In this document: positions 6,713 to 20,421 of the stretch, piece after piece
Layout: each line of letters begins with the position of its first letter
Position numbering within the stretch: the first letter of the stretch is position 1
Virus record (IMG/VR): IMGVR_UViG_3300042526_000224
Location: 1-34,573 of that record
DNA from: a virus
Reading direction: 5' to 3' (one strand)
Length of the DNA stretch: 34,573 bases
Program-made: the position numbers and the translations under genes
The notes under the pieces: model-generated
What the model was told of the DNA's origin: nothing
The model's database searches: none
The model's input: the letters and a program-made list of their open reading frames with translations, nothing else

Positions 6713-7756
6713 GTGAGAAAGCTTCCGCAAATGCACCACCACCGCGCCAGCAATCGCGCGCGCGTTTACTTCAAAGGAAAACATATCTACCTTGGCGAAT
6801 GGGCTTCGCCTGAAGCAAACACCAACTACCAAAATTTCCTTCGGCAGATCGACGAAATAAGCGCTCCGATTGCTAAGGGTGGCGGTCTGCCTGCCAGCGT
6901 TGCCGCTGGTAAGTATCTGGACTATGCCAAAGATTACTTCGGAGGAAAAGGCGAGTATAACAATCTTAAGTCCACACTAGGCGTTTTCATTGAATATTTC
7001 CAATGGCAACCAATAACAGAAATTGGGCCTTTGAAAATTACAAAGTTCATGGAGGATTTGGCGAGCAAGAAGCTTCCACGCATCCGAATTAATCGAATCC
7101 TTCAACACATTAAGAGAATGAATACTTGGCTAGTCGAACGTGAACTTGTTGGCGGAGAGAAATTTGCAGCTATCCAAGCCGTTAAAAGTTTAAAGGCTGG
7201 CCGAACTCCTGCGGTAGAAATGGTACCGGTGGCGGCGGTTAAGATTGAGGTAGTGGAACAAACATTAAAGCTAATCCGAAAGCCTCTTTGCGATATGATC
7301 CAGATTCAATTGCTAACGGCAATGAGGCCTAATGAAGTTTGCAATCTGAATTTCGATGAAATCGACCAGGCAAAAGCCGTTTGGATTTACAGCCCTGCAA
7401 AACACAAAACATCCTACCGAGGACACAAACGGCAGATTTTGATTGGGCCAGAGGCGCAAGCATTACTTCGGCCTTACTCGTTCCTTCCAAAGGATAAGCC
7501 TATTTTTTACACCACTAAAGAGGAACCGTTTACCGCTGGAACCTACGGAAGAGCGATTCTAGAACATAACAAAGCGCACTCAATCCAGCACTGGATGCCG
7601 AACCAATTAAGGCACGCCGCCGCTACTCGCTTGGTAAAGGAATTTGGCTGGCAGGCTGCCAGGATCATTTTAGGGCATAAGTCTTTTGACATTACCGCAA
7701 TTTATGCCGAGGAAAATTTAGAGAAAACAGCGGAGATTATCGGAAGGATTGGCTAG
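6713..7756 (+). CDS. int: Tyrosine recombinase, phage integrase
   Basis: This 347-aa protein has an N-terminal small beta domain (ARVYFKGKHIYLGEWAS), a core-binding helical domain (~60-160) and a catalytic domain. Catalytic residues are Arg205 (TAMRPNEV), a Lys in the 230-240 beta-hairpin, Arg300 in PNQLRHAAAT, His322 (ILGHKS) and nucleophile Tyr331 (ITAIYAEEN). The usual box II His before LRH is Asn297. The GTG start is set by AAGGAGG 8 bp upstream. It catalyses site-specific integration and, with an accessory factor, excision. The NQLRHxxAT box and the N-terminal domain are, to my knowledge, typical of planctomycete integrases. A strong terminator follows 19 bp after the stop. Confidence 0.93.
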   Translation: MRKLPQMHHHRASNRARVYFKGKHIYLGEWASPEANTNYQNFLRQIDEISAPIAKGGGLPASVAAGKYLDYAKDYFGGKGEYNNLKSTLGVFIEYFQWQPITEIGPLKITKFMEDLASKKLPRIRINRILQHIKRMNTWLVERELVGGEKFAAIQAVKSLKAGRTPAVEMVPVAAVKIEVVEQTLKLIRKPLCDMIQIQLLTAMRPNEVCNLNFDEIDQAKAVWIYSPAKHKTSYRGHKRQILIGPEAQALLRPYSFLPKDKPIFYTTKEEPFTAGTYGRAILEHNKAHSIQHWMPNQLRHAAATRLVKEFGWQAARIILGHKSFDITAIYAEENLEKTAEIIGRIG

Positions 7757-10100: not shown

Positions 10101-10471
10101 AAGAAATCGTAGCCGATGCCATAGAAAAAAAGCGTATTCAAGACGCAGAGCATGAAATTAAATGCCAAAAATACGCAGATGAGTTCATCCAGTCATTGCA
10201 ACCAGCGATTGCGCAATGCCTTATTGACCGATCCAATCATCCATCTTGGATATGGTTTGATTTTCAACTTCCTACCGGTGAAAAGTTTCAAGCTGAAGTC
10301 AATCTGTATTCAGATGCAAACAGCGTTCAATGGCGCCCTTACGTCTTTAATCCGGTAATGGGTTGGATGGAATACGGCAGGCGATACCAATCTTATAGCG
10401 AGGTAATCGCACAGGCAATAGACGCAAAGAACTTACAAAACTTTTTAGCATCAAAGGAGATTAAGATATGA
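10088..10471 (+). CDS. Unknown protein coupled to csrA and sak4
   Basis: This 127-aa protein has a helical, charged N-terminus, then a beta-rich middle with aromatic residues (PSWIWFDFQLPTGEKF, WRPYVFNPVMGWMEYG) and a helical end. AAAGGAGG precedes the ATG. It overlaps csrA by 13 bp and the ATPase by 4 bp (ATGA). Its family is not recognised. Its place directly before the recombination ATPase suggests an early DNA-metabolism or CsrA-related accessory, but this is context only. Confidence 0.6.
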   Translation: MQSIEEIVADAIEKKRIQDAEHEIKCQKYADEFIQSLQPAIAQCLIDRSNHPSWIWFDFQLPTGEKFQAEVNLYSDANSVQWRPYVFNPVMGWMEYGRRYQSYSEVIAQAIDAKNLQNFLASKEIKI

Positions 10472-11379
10472 GTAACTTTGAATTTAAGAAAGCACAAGTC
10501 AGCAATCGTAAGCTTCGCCTGGCAATCCTCGGCCCTGCCGGATCTGGCAAGACTTACACCAGCCTTTTATTAGCCAAAGGCATTGGCCAGCCAATAGCTT
10601 TGATTGACACCGAACACGGAAGCGCTGAGATGTACGCTTCAGAGTTTGAGTTTTCAACGCTTAAGCTTAAAGATTTTCATCCTAACAACTACATCGAGGC
10701 GATTGCCTCCGCTGTAAAAGGCGGCTTTAAAACTATCGTAGTGGACTCCTTAAGCCATGCGTGGACAGGCAAAGGCGGTGCCTTGGAATTGGTCGACCAA
10801 GAAACTTCAAGAGGTAAAGGCAACAGTTTTACCGCCTGGCGCAACGTAACGCCGCTTCATAATCGCTTAATCGATTCCATTGTTGGCGCTGGCGCTCACA
10901 TCATTTGCACGATGAGAACGAAAACGGATTACGTCATGGATAAGGACAAGAACGGCTCGACACAGATTAAGAAAGTTGGCTTGGCAGCTATCCAGCGCGA
11001 CGGCATGGAATACGAGTTTGACTTTGTTGGCGAGCTGGACGTTGACCACAAGTTAGCCGTTACCAAATCCAGAATCAAAAGCTTGGCGGACAAAGTTTTC
11101 ACTAAGCCAGGTGCAGAACTTGCCAATGAGTTTAAGAACTTTTTGCAGGCTGGCGAAGCCGCCGCATTAGTTGCGGAGGCGATGGAAGTTTTAGACGCAA
11201 CGATCATGATTTCCGGCGTACAGCAAACGCAAATCCTTTCACTCATTGACCAATTGAATCTTGGCCAAGACTACTTGCCAAAGATTTACGGCCATTACCA
11301 AGTACCAGCCTTGAAGGACTTGACCGGAGCGCAAGGCTCGGCAGTTCTTTCAAGATTGCAATCCAAAGTTTCAGTTTAG
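10468..11379 (+). CDS. RecA-fold ATPase, Sak4-like recombinase
   Basis: This 303-aa protein has Walker A GPAGSGKT (22-29), followed by IALIDTEHGSAE and Walker B TIVVDSLSHAW (Asp93), a motif set typical of phage AAA/RecA-like Sak4 single-strand annealing proteins. The middle part carries VTPLHNRLIDSI and IICTMRTK...EYEFDFVGEL, also typical. The protein would load on ssDNA with the DUF669 SSB-like protein encoded directly downstream. Gene order ATPase-SSB is the usual Sak4 arrangement. The C-terminal ~60 residues are helical and variable. Confidence 0.85.
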   Translation: MSNFEFKKAQVSNRKLRLAILGPAGSGKTYTSLLLAKGIGQPIALIDTEHGSAEMYASEFEFSTLKLKDFHPNNYIEAIASAVKGGFKTIVVDSLSHAWTGKGGALELVDQETSRGKGNSFTAWRNVTPLHNRLIDSIVGAGAHIICTMRTKTDYVMDKDKNGSTQIKKVGLAAIQRDGMEYEFDFVGELDVDHKLAVTKSRIKSLADKVFTKPGAELANEFKNFLQAGEAAALVAEAMEVLDATIMISGVQQTQILSLIDQLNLGQDYLPKIYGHYQVPALKDLTGAQGSAVLSRLQSKVSV

Positions 11380-11407
11380 TTTTTTAACCTTTTAGGAGTT
11401 TTTAGTT

Positions 11408-11890
11408 ATGGATGAGAGTTTTACATTGGATCTTTCAACAGATCGACCAGCCTTTAAACCTATGTTGGAGCAGCTTCAAGCAGGCACTTACAACTTCAAA
11501 ATCGTTGCGGCCTATCCGCATGAAACGAAATCGAAGAAGAAGGCCTTCAAGTTTGAACTTCTTGCACTTGATGCGGACTCTCCGATTAATGGCAAGACCG
11601 TTCACAAGCTGAACTTTCTTTCTCACGCAGTTGGCAAGAATATCCTCATGCGAGAGCTTAAAGTTGTTGGCGTGAAGGTAGAATCTTGGGCCGATCCAGC
11701 AACCGGCGTGATTGAAGCGGCAGAGCTGGAGGCGCAGCTTGCCACCGTTGGCGCAGAGGTCATTGGCAAAGTTGTTACCGCTTTGAAGTCAAAGCGAACA
11801 AATCCAAACGGCCAAGATTGGCATGAACTACAGATCAACGGCTTATCTAATCTGGTTTCACCAACCAGCAACGATGATTTGCCCTTCTAG
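11408..11890 (+). CDS. DUF669 SSB-like single-stranded DNA-binding protein
   Basis: This 160-aa protein has an N-terminal acidic strand, a beta-barrel-like core (GTYNFKIVAAYPHETKSKKK, FKFELLALDAD), and a KSKRTNPNGQDWHELQING segment characteristic of DUF669. It ends in DDLPF, matching the acidic SSB tip (DDDIPF) that recruits partner proteins. TTAGGAG precedes the start. The functional pairing with Sak4 upstream is a strong contextual argument for ssDNA binding. Confidence 0.85.
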   Translation: MDESFTLDLSTDRPAFKPMLEQLQAGTYNFKIVAAYPHETKSKKKAFKFELLALDADSPINGKTVHKLNFLSHAVGKNILMRELKVVGVKVESWADPATGVIEAAELEAQLATVGAEVIGKVVTALKSKRTNPNGQDWHELQINGLSNLVSPTSNDDLPF

Positions 11891-12004: not shown

Positions 12005-13231
12005 ATGTCAACGCTTCTAACCAGTCTATCCAAATTAAAGATTCATCCAGCCGCCGAAATCTTTCCAATGCTTTCCGATGTAGAAATCAGAGACTTGGCC
12101 AAAGACATTACCGAGCGTGGACTACAAAACCATATCGTCACTTACGAAGGCCAATTGTTGGACGGAAGGAACCGTCTGGCGGCTTGTATCCTTGGAGGCA
12201 TCGAGCCAAAGTCTGTAGAGTACGGCGGCGATTCGCCAGTTGGCTTTGTGATCAGCGCCAACCTAAGACGGAGACAACTTGACCCAAGCCAAAGAGCAGC
12301 GGTTGCCGTGGAGATTGAACCGATGTTTGCAGCGGAGGCGAAGGAGCGACAAATCCGAAAGCCTATAGATTCTGTTAAGGTAAATTTGCCTAAACAGAAT
12401 AAAGAACCTCAAGCTAGAGATCAAGCCGCTTCAGTAGTTGGTGTTTCTGGCAAGATGGTAAGTGATGCCAAAGCAATCAAGAAGAATAACCCAGAAGCCT
12501 TTGAGCGCATCAAGTCCGGTGAGGTTACCGTTCATGAAGCCAAGAAGGAAATACGAGGCGAGGAAATCAAGGAAATTCGCGCCAAGATGGTTCAAGAAGC
12601 CGCCGCGGTTCCAAAGGATCACAGATATAAGGTGAGCGTAGGCAATATCGAAACCTACGAAATGCCTGACGAAAAGCAATTTGATTACATAATTTCCGAT
12701 CCTCCGTATATGGAAGAATTTTTATACCTTTACGAAACTCTTGCAGAAAGAGCAGCGGATGATTGGCTCAAGCCTGACGGGCTATTAATCGTGATGTGTG
12801 GTCAATCTTATGTAAATCGTATTTATACGCTCATGTCCAGGCACCTTGATTACTATTGGACGGCAGCATATTTGACACAAGGCCAGCCAACACCACTAAG
12901 GACACGCCAAGTCAATTCAACTTGGAAACCTTTATTGTTCTTTGTTCCAAAGGGTAGCAAGTACAAAGGAAAAATTTTTGGCGATGTGTTTGTTTCCGAT
13001 GCGAACGATAAAAGCTTTCATGAATGGGGCCAGAGCGAAAGCGGAATGCTTTCCATTATCTCAGGCGTTTGTTTACCAGGGCAAACTATCTTTGACCCGT
13101 TCCTAGGAGCAGGCACCACTGGCGTTGCAGCTCTGAAGCATGGTTGCCTATTCGAAGGTATTGACCTTGAATCAAACAATGTTGAAATGGCTAAGACAAG
13201 AATCCACGGTACACGCTGGAGGAGTTTATAA
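12005..13231 (+). CDS. ParB-like domain fused to DNA adenine methyltransferase
   Basis: In this 408-aa protein residues ~8-110 form a ParB/sulfiredoxin-like domain (LDGRNRLAAC, VISANLRRRQLDPSQRA), followed by a ParB-type HTH region (~115-190). Then comes a class-beta methyltransferase: motif IV DPPY (232-235) precedes the AdoMet motif I DPFLGAGTTG (364-373), and FEGIDLE follows. DPPY points to N6-adenine modification. AAGGAGG and the structured leader precede the start; the stop overlaps the next ATG. It could protect phage DNA from restriction or mark the origin. The ParB part probably aids DNA targeting and gives no evidence of partitioning. Confidence 0.88.
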   Translation: MSTLLTSLSKLKIHPAAEIFPMLSDVEIRDLAKDITERGLQNHIVTYEGQLLDGRNRLAACILGGIEPKSVEYGGDSPVGFVISANLRRRQLDPSQRAAVAVEIEPMFAAEAKERQIRKPIDSVKVNLPKQNKEPQARDQAASVVGVSGKMVSDAKAIKKNNPEAFERIKSGEVTVHEAKKEIRGEEIKEIRAKMVQEAAAVPKDHRYKVSVGNIETYEMPDEKQFDYIISDPPYMEEFLYLYETLAERAADDWLKPDGLLIVMCGQSYVNRIYTLMSRHLDYYWTAAYLTQGQPTPLRTRQVNSTWKPLLFFVPKGSKYKGKIFGDVFVSDANDKSFHEWGQSESGMLSIISGVCLPGQTIFDPFLGAGTTGVAALKHGCLFEGIDLESNNVEMAKTRIHGTRWRSL

Positions 13232-13662: not shown

Positions 13663-14073
13663 ATGAAAATACTAGAATTTCGACGAGTTACTTTCAGTAT
13701 TCCAGTAAACAATAGATATCTTAGAAATCGCAAGGAATGCTATCACGCTTGGTATTATTGCAATAATGCTTATTGGCAGGATGACAGCGGACAGGTAACG
13801 CAACGCTCTTGGATCGATTTATACACCGAATTTTTACCGATCTCCAAGCAGACGGCGCCTTTGGTCATGATGTTTCTTAATGATCATTCAGAGGCATTCA
13901 AGAGCCACGAACTGACCTTGATTAATGATCAGTATCCGCCAGATTTCCAAGGCAATTCCTACGCCAGAAAAGTCTGGGAAAGCCAAGAATTTGAAATGCT
14001 TAAATCCATTGCGGAAACGGTGTTGAAGAACATGAAGAAATACGAAGAAATGGCACAGGTGAAAAATGGCTAA
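13663..14073 (+). CDS. Unknown early protein
   Basis: This 136-aa protein is rich in aromatic residues (ECYHAWYYCNNAYWQDD) with a helical C-terminus, and no motif was recognised. It sits between the nuclease gene and the replication initiator, whose ATG overlaps its 3' end by 8 bp. Coupled translation suggests a link to replication. Confidence 0.6.
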   Translation: MKILEFRRVTFSIPVNNRYLRNRKECYHAWYYCNNAYWQDDSGQVTQRSWIDLYTEFLPISKQTAPLVMMFLNDHSEAFKSHELTLINDQYPPDFQGNSYARKVWESQEFEMLKSIAETVLKNMKKYEEMAQVKNG

Positions 14074-14947
14074 TGATTGGATTAAATTCCGTTCCGGCCT
14101 GTTTGAATCACCGAAATTAATTGGCATGGCCAAGTATTTGGCGCGCTCAATTAACTTCCTTAACTGGCTTACTCCGGAAGTCTGCGAAGTTTGCACAGAT
14201 AATGTAACTTCAGAAAAAGCGTTACGTTTGGTAACGGGTGCGTTACTTTCCGTTACCTGGTCACGGTTACGCCAGTTTGGTAAGGCGTTACCTAATGGCG
14301 ATTGCTTCCTAGAATTTTTATCATTATCCGACCTCGACGGCATCGCAGGCGCTCCAGATGTTGGCGCAGCTATGGAGTATGTTGGATGGGCTGAATACAG
14401 CGAAGAAATGCAGGGTGTAATAATACCTAAGTTCTTTCTGGAGCATAACGTTGCGTTAAGTTCAGCCGAGAAACAAAGCGCCTATCGAGAACGAAAAAAC
14501 GTTCAAAAAAGAACTGAAAAGCGTTACCAAAGCGTTACCGAAGCGTTACCAGACGATGGTAACAAAACGGTAACTAGAGTAGAGGAGAGTAGAGTATTAG
14601 TAGAAGTAGTAGAAAAAGCAGAAAAAATATTCCAGCCTGAGATAATTTTTAAATGTCATGGCAAAGAAAAAGCTTGGATTCTGACCGAACAATTCTTGGC
14701 AACGGCTCGAGAAGCCTTTCCAGCCCTTCCAGTTCTTGAGATTATTCGAGGTGCTTGGTTCTGGACGGAAAACAATCCAGAGCGCAGGAAGACGGCAAAA
14801 GGAATGCCGAGATTCTTAAGCAATTGGATTGCTAACGAAAACAACAAAGCGCCTACCGCAAATCTACCACGGACACGACCGGTCAAAGCTTCGCCTGTTG
14901 ATGTAGATGAATACCTAAGAAACAAATTTGCGGAGGTGCAGTCATGA
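14066..14947 (+). CDS. Replication initiator (lambda O-like role)
   Basis: This 293-aa protein starts NDWIKFRSGLFESPKLIGMA, the opening of many phage replication-organiser proteins. An N-terminal wHTH-like domain (~1-130) is followed by a charged linker (~140-190) and a C-terminal domain (PEIIFKCHGKEKAW...) with a basic tail. The linker coding sequence holds an iteron array (14521-14574), and a further array lies at 14203-14291. This is the arrangement of lambda O, whose origin is inside its own gene. The next two genes start in ATGA overlaps and may include the helicase loader. Confidence 0.75.
   Translation: MANDWIKFRSGLFESPKLIGMAKYLARSINFLNWLTPEVCEVCTDNVTSEKALRLVTGALLSVTWSRLRQFGKALPNGDCFLEFLSLSDLDGIAGAPDVGAAMEYVGWAEYSEEMQGVIIPKFFLEHNVALSSAEKQSAYRERKNVQKRTEKRYQSVTEALPDDGNKTVTRVEESRVLVEVVEKAEKIFQPEIIFKCHGKEKAWILTEQFLATAREAFPALPVLEIIRGAWFWTENNPERRKTAKGMPRFLSNWIANENNKAPTANLPRTRPVKASPVDVDEYLRNKFAEVQS
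14203..14291. other. GTTAC iteron cluster 1 (origin-associated)
   Basis: GTTAC or its complement GTAAC begins at 14204, 14221, 14231, 14242, 14252, 14266 and 14287. Most neighbours are 10-11 bp or two turns (21 bp) apart, so the boxes lie on one helical face. Confidence 0.65.
14521..14660. other. Putative origin: 11-bp-spaced iterons plus purine/AT-rich tract
   Basis: GCGTTACC occurs at 14521, 14532 and 14543, and inverted GTAAC at 14559 and 14570, all pairs except the central one 11 bp apart. A purine-rich then AT-rich stretch follows (about 14575-14660), like the unwinding element of lambda ori. Five of the boxes are inside the initiator linker. Confidence 0.7.
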
Positions 14948-15258
14948 GGCAATCAACGAACTGCCTTAAATGCGGTAGGGAAGTTGTCAAAATGTATGGC
15001 CACAAAGACCTTTGCAATCTGTGCTACACACGGAATTTAAATCTTAGCGCAAGAGGTGCTGCGGAAATGAAAAAGTTGAAGGATGAGCTAAAGAAAGTTA
15101 AAGCCACGTTGAAAAGTTTACGAACCACCTTAAGCAATCACAGGATTTCATTGAAGACCGCAGCACGAAACAACGAAAAGCTTAAAGCTACAAACAATGA
15201 ACTCGAAGCCTTTTTTGCTGTCACGTTCAAAGAAATAGGAAAGAAGGTGCAATCATGA
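14944..15258 (+). CDS. Zinc-ribbon / coiled-coil protein
   Basis: This 104-aa protein has an N-terminal zinc ribbon (CLKCG at 7-11 and CNLC at 27-30) followed by a long lysine-rich coiled coil (~40-95). It starts in an ATGA overlap with the initiator and ends in one with the next gene. The same design recurs at 15880-16155. Likely a DNA- or protein-binding adaptor of the replication module; no specific family was identified. Confidence 0.7.
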   Translation: MRQSTNCLKCGREVVKMYGHKDLCNLCYTRNLNLSARGAAEMKKLKDELKKVKATLKSLRTTLSNHRISLKTAARNNEKLKATNNELEAFFAVTFKEIGKKVQS

Positions 15259-15989
15259 AGCCAACTTTATCCGAGCTATTAGCCTGGACGAAAAAACACG
15301 CCAGCCGTTTCGCCTGGACAGCTCCAGCGGATTTGGAATGTCTTGCGGAATGGGCAACAATCCAAACCAAATACGGCGTAACACTCCAGGAGCTTGAGGA
15401 AGTTTCTGAGCGAATGGTAATGAATACGCGCGATGTTTTTGGAAAGGAAAATCACTTGAAAACGCTTAACACGATTTTACACGGACTACGAGAGCGAAAA
15501 GTCTACGCAGTTATTGAAGACGACCAGCGAGGAACTTGTACCACGTGCGGAGCTGGCGTTGGATTGGTATCCGTTCCAGAGCCAAGGCAAATCGTTCATG
15601 GCGATTGGGTTGGCGTTCAATTTACTTTTGTTTGGTGCAGTTGTACCGATGGCTACCGGTACAAAACTACAAAGAATCTTAAAGACCAACCGCTTATGGG
15701 CTTGGCCGAATACGAGCGCCGAGTTAATCCATTTTGGCGTAAACACGTCAAAGACTACTGGGCCAAGGCGGTAAGCGAAAACGCAGTGTTTGCTTTCGCA
15801 AGAAATCTAGATGGCAAAGTTGGCGCTAATCTTTCGGTGTTGGATAAATTGCAACTCAAAATCATAGGAAGGATGAACGATGAAATCGATAACGGATTTA
15901 TCGCAGAGCGTGCTGGAAGTACCCAAGGAAATCTGCCAAAAATGCTTACGAGCAACGATAACCAGATTTACGAGAGGACGAATATGTAA
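15255..15989 (+). CDS. Possible helicase-loader-position protein with Cys cluster
   Basis: This 244-aa protein has a helical N-terminus (~1-90), then CTTCG...WCSC (residues ~94-131), a probable zinc site, then a helical domain (YERRVNPFWRKHVKDYW). Sequence does not identify a family. It directly follows an O-like initiator and a zinc-ribbon gene, the place of lambda P, so helicase loading is proposed by position alone. The last 110 bp overlap the next gene in another frame. Confidence 0.6.
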   Translation: MKPTLSELLAWTKKHASRFAWTAPADLECLAEWATIQTKYGVTLQELEEVSERMVMNTRDVFGKENHLKTLNTILHGLRERKVYAVIEDDQRGTCTTCGAGVGLVSVPEPRQIVHGDWVGVQFTFVWCSCTDGYRYKTTKNLKDQPLMGLAEYERRVNPFWRKHVKDYWAKAVSENAVFAFARNLDGKVGANLSVLDKLQLKIIGRMNDEIDNGFIAERAGSTQGNLPKMLTSNDNQIYERTNM

Positions 15990-18401: not shown

Positions 18402-18860
18402 ATGACACTGAAGAGCAAGACCGGCCCTAAAACGGCACCGATACAAGGCGAACTCTTTCATTACGCACCAGAGGCCACCTTTGCAGACTTCGCAAATGCT
18501 GGCCTTCAGGAGACTGAGAAACGAATCGCTCAAGCTATCCTGAATAGCGCACCGGCTACGCTTATTGCCAGGCACGAAACGCAACCGGTAATTAGCCTGG
18601 CGAATACTCTTGGCATGATCGCAGGGCTTCAGCGAGAACTTGCAACGCATGGATTGGTAGACGAACTTGGCGAGCCTTCGCCGATCATTCCAAAAATAAT
18701 TGCACTAGAATCATTAGCGTTGAAACTTGCGAACGCTCTTCGCCTGACACCATCAACCAGGCACGAACTAACAAGAATTGGAACGCCTTCGGATTATCCT
18801 TCTGAAGTTCCGATGATGGGCAATAACGATGACCTATTTACGGACATGAGCAATGAGTAG
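18402..18860 (+). CDS. Terminase small subunit (P27-like)
   Basis: This 152-aa helical protein contains LALKLANALRLTPSTRHELTRIG, close to the LxLTPSSRxRL ending of P27-family small terminases. It overlaps the large subunit by 8 bp and is preceded by AAAAGGAGTAGG. It should recognise the packaging site, for which the T-tract region immediately upstream is a candidate, and load the large subunit. Confidence 0.85.
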   Translation: MTLKSKTGPKTAPIQGELFHYAPEATFADFANAGLQETEKRIAQAILNSAPATLIARHETQPVISLANTLGMIAGLQRELATHGLVDELGEPSPIIPKIIALESLALKLANALRLTPSTRHELTRIGTPSDYPSEVPMMGNNDDLFTDMSNE

Positions 18861-20421
18861 TAGCAAGAAAGCTATTCACTTCATTGAACAGTATTGCAGC
18901 CATGCAAAGGGTAAGCTTGCTGGCGAAAAGTTTACGCTTGCGCCGTGGCAAAAGGATTTACTTGTCAAGTTTTACGACACTTTAACACCAGATAAGCAAA
19001 GGCAATACCAACAAGTTTGGCTAGAACTTGGCCGTAAGAATGGTAAATCAACGCTCGTAGCAGCTCTTGGCCTATTCGCATTATTGGGCGATGGCGGCCA
19101 AGCTGAAGTTATTAGCGCCGCAAGTACAAGAGATCAAGCAAAAATCATATTCGACTCCGCCAAAACAATGGTGTTAAGCTCCGAAATCCTTTCTAGAAGG
19201 TGCAAGGTATTACGAAACGAAATCGCAGTTCCTTCAACGAATTCAATTTACCGAGTGATTAGCGCAGATGCCAAGCGCCAACATGGATTAAATCCAAGCT
19301 TTTGTATCCTCGACGAAGTCCATTGCCTTGGTAACGATGAACTCTATACCGCACTCCGCACCGCTGGCGGATCGCGCGAAAACTTTGCTTTCTGGATGAT
19401 TACCACCGCAGGCACACAAGCAAGCTTCGGGTACTCGCAACACTCCTACGCTCGCAAGGTAATGGACGGATCGATTAAAGATCCAACTTTCCTACCGGTT
19501 ATTTATGCCGCAGACCAAGGCGCAGATTGGAAAGATCCGGTGCAATGGCTCAAAGCGAATCCAAATATCGGAATTTCCTTGAATGAAAAGTTTCTTGAAG
19601 ACTCTTGCCGAGAAGCGCAAACAAGTATTTCCAAAGAAATGGATTTTAAAAGGTATCATCTGAATTTATGGGAAGGCTCCGCAGAACAGAACTGGATTCA
19701 AATCGATAAATACCTGAAATGCGAAAAGATTAATAAACAGGAAATGATCGAGAAATACAAAGGGCGTGTTTGTCATGGTGGTTTAGACTTAAGTTCAAAG
19801 AGAGATTTAAGCGCATTTTCTTTATACTTTCCTCCAACCTATGGCGAGGATATTGGAGCTTTCTTGGTTTGGCATTGGTGTCCGAAGTACGCCACCGAAT
19901 CACGCAGAGAATCTATTGGCGCACAAGTCTTAGACGATTGGATTCGAGATGATTTTATTACCGAACACTCTACCGAGTGGATCAATCAAGAGCTAATCGT
20001 TAAAGATATCGCAGCACTTGCCGAGGAATTTCAGATTCAAAGTATTGGCGTCGATGAATGGAACGCATCCGAAACACTACGGAAGTTAAAAGATGATCAT
20101 AATATTGAAGTTCTAACTTTTCGCCAGACGCTAAAAAACTTGAACAATCCGACCAAAGTTTTAGAAGAGTGGATTAATTTTCAAAGAATAATCTTGCCAG
20201 ATGATCCTGTTTTGCAATGGGAGTTTTCGAACGCCGTTTGTATTTCTGATCGAAATGGAAATATAGCGATATCTAAATCACGAGAAAAGGATAAAGTGGA
20301 TGGGGTAATGTCCATGATTATGGCTCTTGGCCGATGGCAAGCATCTACAGCAACGGAAACAGATTTCAGCTACCTAGAAGACGGCATAACAATAATAGGG
20401 GATAATTATGAATTTTCTTGA
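18853..20421 (+). CDS. terL: Terminase large subunit
   Basis: In this 522-aa protein Walker A-like GRKNGKST (60-67) and Walker B CILDEVH (151-157) form the packaging ATPase. GGLDLSSKRD (Asp312) begins the RNase H-like nuclease domain, with a further acidic site at GVDEWN. The length and order match HK97-type (Terminase_1) large subunits. Together with the HNH protein upstream it cuts and packages concatemeric DNA through the portal. The gene overlaps portal by 14 bp. Confidence 0.95.
   Translation: MSSSKKAIHFIEQYCSHAKGKLAGEKFTLAPWQKDLLVKFYDTLTPDKQRQYQQVWLELGRKNGKSTLVAALGLFALLGDGGQAEVISAASTRDQAKIIFDSAKTMVLSSEILSRRCKVLRNEIAVPSTNSIYRVISADAKRQHGLNPSFCILDEVHCLGNDELYTALRTAGGSRENFAFWMITTAGTQASFGYSQHSYARKVMDGSIKDPTFLPVIYAADQGADWKDPVQWLKANPNIGISLNEKFLEDSCREAQTSISKEMDFKRYHLNLWEGSAEQNWIQIDKYLKCEKINKQEMIEKYKGRVCHGGLDLSSKRDLSAFSLYFPPTYGEDIGAFLVWHWCPKYATESRRESIGAQVLDDWIRDDFITEHSTEWINQELIVKDIAALAEEFQIQSIGVDEWNASETLRKLKDDHNIEVLTFRQTLKNLNNPTKVLEEWINFQRIILPDDPVLQWEFSNAVCISDRNGNIAISKSREKDKVDGVMSMIMALGRWQASTATETDFSYLEDGITIIGDNYEFS

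Follow-up and report, generated by a model that had tools for sequence, protein, structure and literature searches.

The DNA analyzed here (the window) is a 34,573-base virus record, and the element under study is a set of short repeated boxes within its replication initiator gene (positions 14066-14947, + strand), which encodes a protein of 293 amino acids. Our analysis indicates that this gene very probably carries a lambda-like, and also RepA_N-like, iteron origin inside its own coding sequence, and that it belongs to an initiator family without sequence similarity to lambda O. In this work we established the boxes, their selection at the DNA level, their layout and spacing grammar, the co-variation of the two clusters and their exchange together with the N-terminal domain. 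The array is strongly supported as a DNA element, and from these features we infer, with good support, that it is an origin.

Box clusters under selection at the DNA level

Twelve GTTAC/GTAAC boxes lie inside the initiator gene, in two clusters and at the places where an initial annotation, made from the sequence, had put them. Cluster 1 (14204-14291) is located in the codons of the DNA-binding domain and comprises seven boxes, at 14204(-), 14221(+), 14231(-), 14242(+), 14252(+), 14266(+) and 14287(+), with spacings of 17, 10, 11, 10, 14 and 21 bp, plus a GTCAC at 14260. Cluster 2 (14523-14574), in the linker codons, holds five: three tandem copies of GCGTTACC (GTTAC at 14523, 14534 and 14545, +), followed by two inverted GGTAAC boxes (GTAAC at 14559 and 14570, -), at spacings of 11, 11, 14 and 11 bp. 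The initial annotation had described this tandem-and-inverted order correctly, as well as spacings of mostly 10-11 bp with 14 and 21, all of which we found, and it had not mentioned the spacing of 17. Also as annotated, a purine/A-rich tract with one C in 57 bases lies directly 3' of cluster 2 (14575-14631, + strand); it is probably the unwinding element of the predicted origin. The two clusters are the densest of the whole window, with 7 and 5 boxes per 100 bp, the next best elsewhere having 3.

The number of boxes expected by chance depends on what is kept constant. Dinucleotide shuffles of the whole window gave 44.3 boxes in 34.6 kb, or about 0.5 per 370 bp, a null that is too easy because the V-T and A-L-P residues of the protein favor the box word; for a fair null, the value of about 0.7 put forward by the initial annotation is likewise too low. 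With the protein fixed and the codon usage of the window, 4.2 boxes are expected (standard deviation 1.2, maximum 9 in 20,000 draws) against the 12 observed, and when the gene's own codons were shuffled the expectation was 5.4, with none of 300 shuffles reaching 12. A simple search for close relatives of the window protein found only two (L002 and L003, at 90-92% protein identity), and both retain all 12 boxes. Among these three genomes, third codon positions varied at 1 of 29 sites in the boxes and 0 of 16 in the tract, compared with 93 of 247 elsewhere in the gene. Together, the protein-fixed excess and the frozen silent sites strongly support selection of the boxes at the DNA level; they are repeats under such selection and with regular spacing, which is what defines an iteron array.

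The arrangement recurs in the initiator family

A wider set of relatives was built from a homologue encoded on a Pseudomonas juntendi plasmid together with PHROG relatives, using search patterns that exclude the box-coding residues. It yielded 217 genes, of which 150 non-redundant ones were kept, and enrichment was judged by synonymous shuffles. GTTAC was significantly enriched in 70 of these genes, GCGGAC in 43 and both in none, a class ratio that is no census since the seeds came from two main clades. Most of the inspected genes with neither word carried CGTGAC (L061, L064 and L146), CGTCAC (L058, L094 and L135) or GTAGAC (L063), so that the lineage-specific box words comprise CGTTAC, GCGGAC, CGTGAC, CGTCAC and GTAGAC.

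The same layout recurs across the 150 genes: one cluster lies where the DNA-binding domain is encoded and the other in the linker, usually followed by AGAGAAGAGAAGAGAA. The P. juntendi plasmid homologue, at 28% identity, has both GTNAC clusters and then a purine tract in a gene of 63% GC; three relatives at 30-37% identity (L230, L234 and L235) have dense GTTAC in both places and AGAGAAGAGAAGAG tracts, with GTCAC also present in L230 and L235. Phages of Escherichia and Xanthomonas and one environmental phage show CGTTAC boxes at gene positions of about 149-196 and 341-390, and GCGGAC boxes occupy both places in epsilon15, PAT1, BUCT711 and phiPSA1. In-gene box density is 5.7-8.6 per kb, versus 0.2-0.8 per kb in the 3-kb flanks. 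The initial annotation had proposed a lambda-like reading and a comparison with relatives as a check on it; our results support that reading, since conservation beyond codon need was indeed found. Along with the protein, the relatives have retained both clusters, the spacing of the boxes and the tract, and those using another word changed both clusters together.

To quantify this coordination, the box word was called independently for the N-terminal part and for the linker. Calls were possible for both in 131 genes, and the two words were identical in 129 of them; the two exceptions (L053 and L082) have mixed words. A tree of the N-terminal domain, with poor resolution at many forks, implies about 9-12 changes of the word, and in it GTCAC/GTGAC and GCGGAC members are nested among GTTAC ones. 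Residue 51 mostly tracks the box (N with CGTTAC, H with CGTGAC, D with CGTCAC; exceptions L065 and L094). Specificity residues are not clearly nameable, since the 10 alignment columns that split the two large classes also split two large clades.

Across words a common grammar is kept, consisting of a diverging pair at 13 bp (116, 80, 6 and 3 cases) and tandem copies at 11-12 bp; the single GTAGAC gene has steps of 12 and 14 bp only. The tract is similarly shared: 125 of the 150 genes contain a purine run of at least 14, and 3 contain pyrimidine runs. The median distance from the start of the last linker box to the beginning of the purine run is 7 nt, and in 87 genes the run opens with AGAGAAGAGAAGAGAAGAGA. 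Arginine codons within it are AGA in 292 of 296 cases, versus 275 of 2414 elsewhere. The E/K/R-rich peptide partly favors such a run, as synonymous shuffles averaged 13.7 versus 21.2 observed, and singly only 36 genes pass p 0.01. The tract of the window is a degenerate counterpart of the family's AGAGAAGAGAAGAGAA.

Three loci are worth describing separately. In a distant relative (L236:2501-3295), CGGGAC boxes occur only in the linker, immediately 5' of a 29-base AGAGA tract, and no N-terminal cluster was found. An Akkermansia homologue (L062:1809-2513) branches among GTTAC-type proteins and has GCGGAC linker boxes, possibly a convergent switch of the box word. The initiator of Vibrio phage VPBES (L005:2434-3402; PHROG 1032, HTH_36) carries tandem 24-bp units with GAAAACGGTACTTTGAATAGG in its linker codons, apparently another in-gene iteron array.

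Exchange of the N-terminal domain and its boxes in the Rac prophage

The Rac prophage of E. coli 442/2 encodes a YdaU that belongs to this family, and its gene has both GTTAC clusters and a AGAGGAAGAGGAAGAGG tract. Compared with the Rac DNA of K-12, the 442/2 DNA is 87% identical through ydaT, shows no identity across the N-terminal domain and linker, and is 92% identical from about codon 143 through the C-terminal domain and ydaV, a DnaC-like gene. The K-12 YdaU has an unrelated N-terminal domain, DUF1376 (PF07120), and no GTTAC array was found in its linker; several GTTCA boxes occur around the linker instead. Because the identity breaks over the N-terminal domain and linker and resumes in the C-terminal domain and ydaV, the N-terminal domain and boxes of ydaU travel as one block, apart from the C-terminal domain. 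Among 5,426 complete E. coli genomes, about 680 matched the 442/2-type version over at least 80% of its N-domain stretch, and about 851 matched the K-12 type. The two ydaU loci (L237:1228-2016 in 442/2 and L238:5120-5977 in K-12) represent a natural swap of a presumed origin module.

Rac carries an active origin, oriJ (PMC3945230). We considered oriJ as direct proof for the GTTAC type of box and dropped it, because the ydaU gene of K-12 has a different N-terminal domain and its linker lacks a GTTAC array.

The initiator protein and a proposed mechanism

The window protein matches PHROG 2509, a family of replication initiation proteins (E 1.5e-12, 48.7 bits, residues 79-188), and PHROG 9474, also of replication initiation proteins (E 4.5e-5), an annotation according to which it would act in starting phage replication. 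No family match was found in Pfam (E up to 1) or NCBIfam. An AlphaFold2 model showed a confident winged-helix N-terminal domain (residues ~6-130), a long helix forming the linker (~129-190) and a less certain C-terminal domain (~190-290); the N-terminal domain of the family modelled alone reached a mean predicted local distance difference test (pLDDT) score of 88.6. The codons of the winged-helix domain (14081-14455, + strand) would on these models encode the box reader. Foldseek gave no match below E 0.001 in the PDB, and fold matches by VIA-align had middling Z values only. The C-terminal domain (codons 14636-14944, + strand) weakly matches the C-terminal parts of initiators from Vibrio and Ruminococcus phages (E 5e-5 to 1e-3), and in several other family members a DnaT domain sits at this position; recruitment of the host replication machinery is its probable role.

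From these data we infer the following mechanism, which covers box binding by the protein, melting at the tract, helicase loading and a role for cluster 1. The N-terminal winged-helix domain would bind the short in-gene boxes, of about CGTTACC in the window, and steps of one helical turn would align several protomers along the same face of the DNA. The origin core probably consists of the linker array with the adjoining purine/A-rich tract; there the nucleoprotein complex would strain and then melt the tract, and the C-terminal domain would bring the host replicative helicase or primosome. In several relatives a DnaT-like C-terminal domain is present or a DnaC-like gene comes next; neither was recognized in the window. 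The function of cluster 1, about 250 bp upstream, is the weakest part of the model: it would probably enlarge the complex by looping, or control initiation or expression.

Several observations weigh against an origin at this site. The window protein is diverged, with 19-32% identity to most of the family, and because of this divergence the exact palindrome of the family is not conserved in the window. Its tract is broken up by T, and its linker array reads +++-- with 14 bp between the facing boxes, whereas a diverging pair with a 13-bp step is found in most relatives. Among the window genes searched, none was recognized as encoding a helicase or a loader. On well supported branches the tree offers only 4 independent pairs for judging co-switching; all 4 switch together, too few for significance by themselves (sign test p 0.125). 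The position of oriJ within Rac was not found in the open literature. Finally, the GC-skew analysis that the initial annotation had suggested for locating a replication start showed no sharp turn at 14.5 kb; as, in addition, nearly all genes lie on one strand, the skew neither supports nor refutes an origin.

Alternative explanations

An improbable alternative is that the boxes are operators of the replication operon, bound by the initiator or by another phage regulator, with the origin elsewhere. Many initiators regulate their own synthesis, cluster 1 is near the start of the gene, so that protein bound there could stop transcription, and two arrays about 250 bp apart suit looping. However, the conserved purine tract adjoins the linker cluster and not a promoter, nearly all relatives have the arrays well inside the gene, with flanks that are poor in boxes, and in several relatives the gene stands beside DnaC-like loaders; none of the tools used gave a result favoring an operator over an origin.

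That the boxes are targets of a phage DNA methyltransferase is a very remote prospect. A neighboring gene (12005-13231) does match N6_N4_Mtase (E 1.6e-13), and GTNAC, self-complementary apart from its center, is a near-palindrome. Nevertheless, the word switches among relatives without any need for palindromy (GCGGAC, GTAGAC), several array-bearing relatives show no methyltransferase within the stretch read, and the spacing grammar points to a multimeric binder.

Least of all are the boxes to be seen as a by-product of favored V-T and A-L-P residue repeats, a view to which we give practically no weight: although these residues raise the expectation with the protein fixed to 4-5 instead of 0.7, the boxes number 12 and are spread over all three reading frames, and therefore the protein is not their cause, while the frozen silent sites, the co-variation of the clusters and the tracking of the box by residue 51 in most relatives contradict it.

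Significance of the proposed iteron origin

Taken beyond the window, the proposed in-gene origin leads us to lean, with some reserve, towards a broader model in which a widespread initiator family writes its recognition word at two places in the gene that encodes it, one of them the coding sequence of the domain that does the reading. Repeated switches between lineages would change both arrays and the reader while one grammar and the purine tract are kept, and the N-terminal domain and boxes would pass from phage to phage as one unit specifying the identity of the origin. In-gene origins are already known from lambda and from RepA_N plasmids; for this large family, which takes in epsilon15-type phages and a variant of the Rac prophage, we found neither such an origin nor iterons described in the open literature, subscription papers being outside the search. 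Papers retrieved with the box or tract sequence were unrelated.

The coordinated change of word in both groups of boxes makes the recognition code testable, and the natural switches provide ready pairs for finding the residues that read the bases, such as L094 and L095, which are 86% and 88% identical to L068. Furthermore, the common grammar allows origins to be spotted by eye in many uncharacterized phages.

Genomic context

The window contains an integrase (6713-7756) and a large terminase (18853-20421), and on this basis the genome is probably that of a temperate phage. A recombination module (10468-11890) encodes an AAA_24/Sak4-like protein (PHROG 1366 and 124), followed by a weak match to a single-strand-binding protein (PHROG 378). 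Just upstream of the initiator, the gene at 12005-13231 encodes a fusion protein that joins a ParB-like N-terminal part with an N6/N4 DNA methyltransferase. Two genes 3' of the initiator (14944-15989) encode a zinc-finger/coiled-coil-like protein of 104 amino acids and a protein of 244 amino acids without clear family; no replication function was recognized for either, and in some relatives a helicase loader takes that place.

Comparison with known systems

In oriLambda, iterons and an AT-rich tract lie in the middle of gene O (PMC7466680; also PMC6022878), and the window likewise has repeats and an AT-rich or purine-rich tract inside its initiator gene. Lambda has 4-6 long iterons, whereas the boxes of this family are of 5-7 bp at steps of 11-12 bp, with a further array where the DNA-binding domain is encoded and a purine AGAGA tract. 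The caution of the initial annotation about homology to O was right: the protein belongs to PHROG 2509/9474, and searches found no O-like PHROG at E 0.1 and no HTH_36 at E 1.

Within the family, the closest counterparts are the ydaU gene of 442/2 Rac, with its two GTTAC clusters and tract, and the replication genes of epsilon15-type phages, with GCGGAC arrays in epsilon15 and PAT1; the latter phages differ in their word and in having other C-terminal domains (DnaT-like in epsilon15). The K-12 YdaU (DUF1376) shares its C-terminal domain and ydaV neighbor with that of 442/2 and has GTTCA boxes around its linker, but differs in its unrelated N-terminal domain and box word.

In the RepA_N protein of pSK41, a winged-helix N-terminal domain binds Rep boxes located centrally in rep, the linker is encoded by the origin and the C-terminal domain is host-specific; a second array is absent from that account (PMC5703833). 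No Pfam RepA_N match was obtained for the window protein (E up to 1). Among the top matches to the N-terminal fold were 4pql, 5kbj and 4pt7, with Z values of 5.0-5.1 that are tied with those of unrelated CRP-type winged helices and root-mean-square deviations of 3.1-3.2 over 80-81 residues; we take these three entries to be RepA_N-type N-terminal domain structures. Cluster 2 and the tract lie between the codons of the N- and C-terminal domains, a position that would suit an origin of the RepA_N kind. Matching neither lambda nor RepA_N by sequence, the window element would resemble both in its workings.
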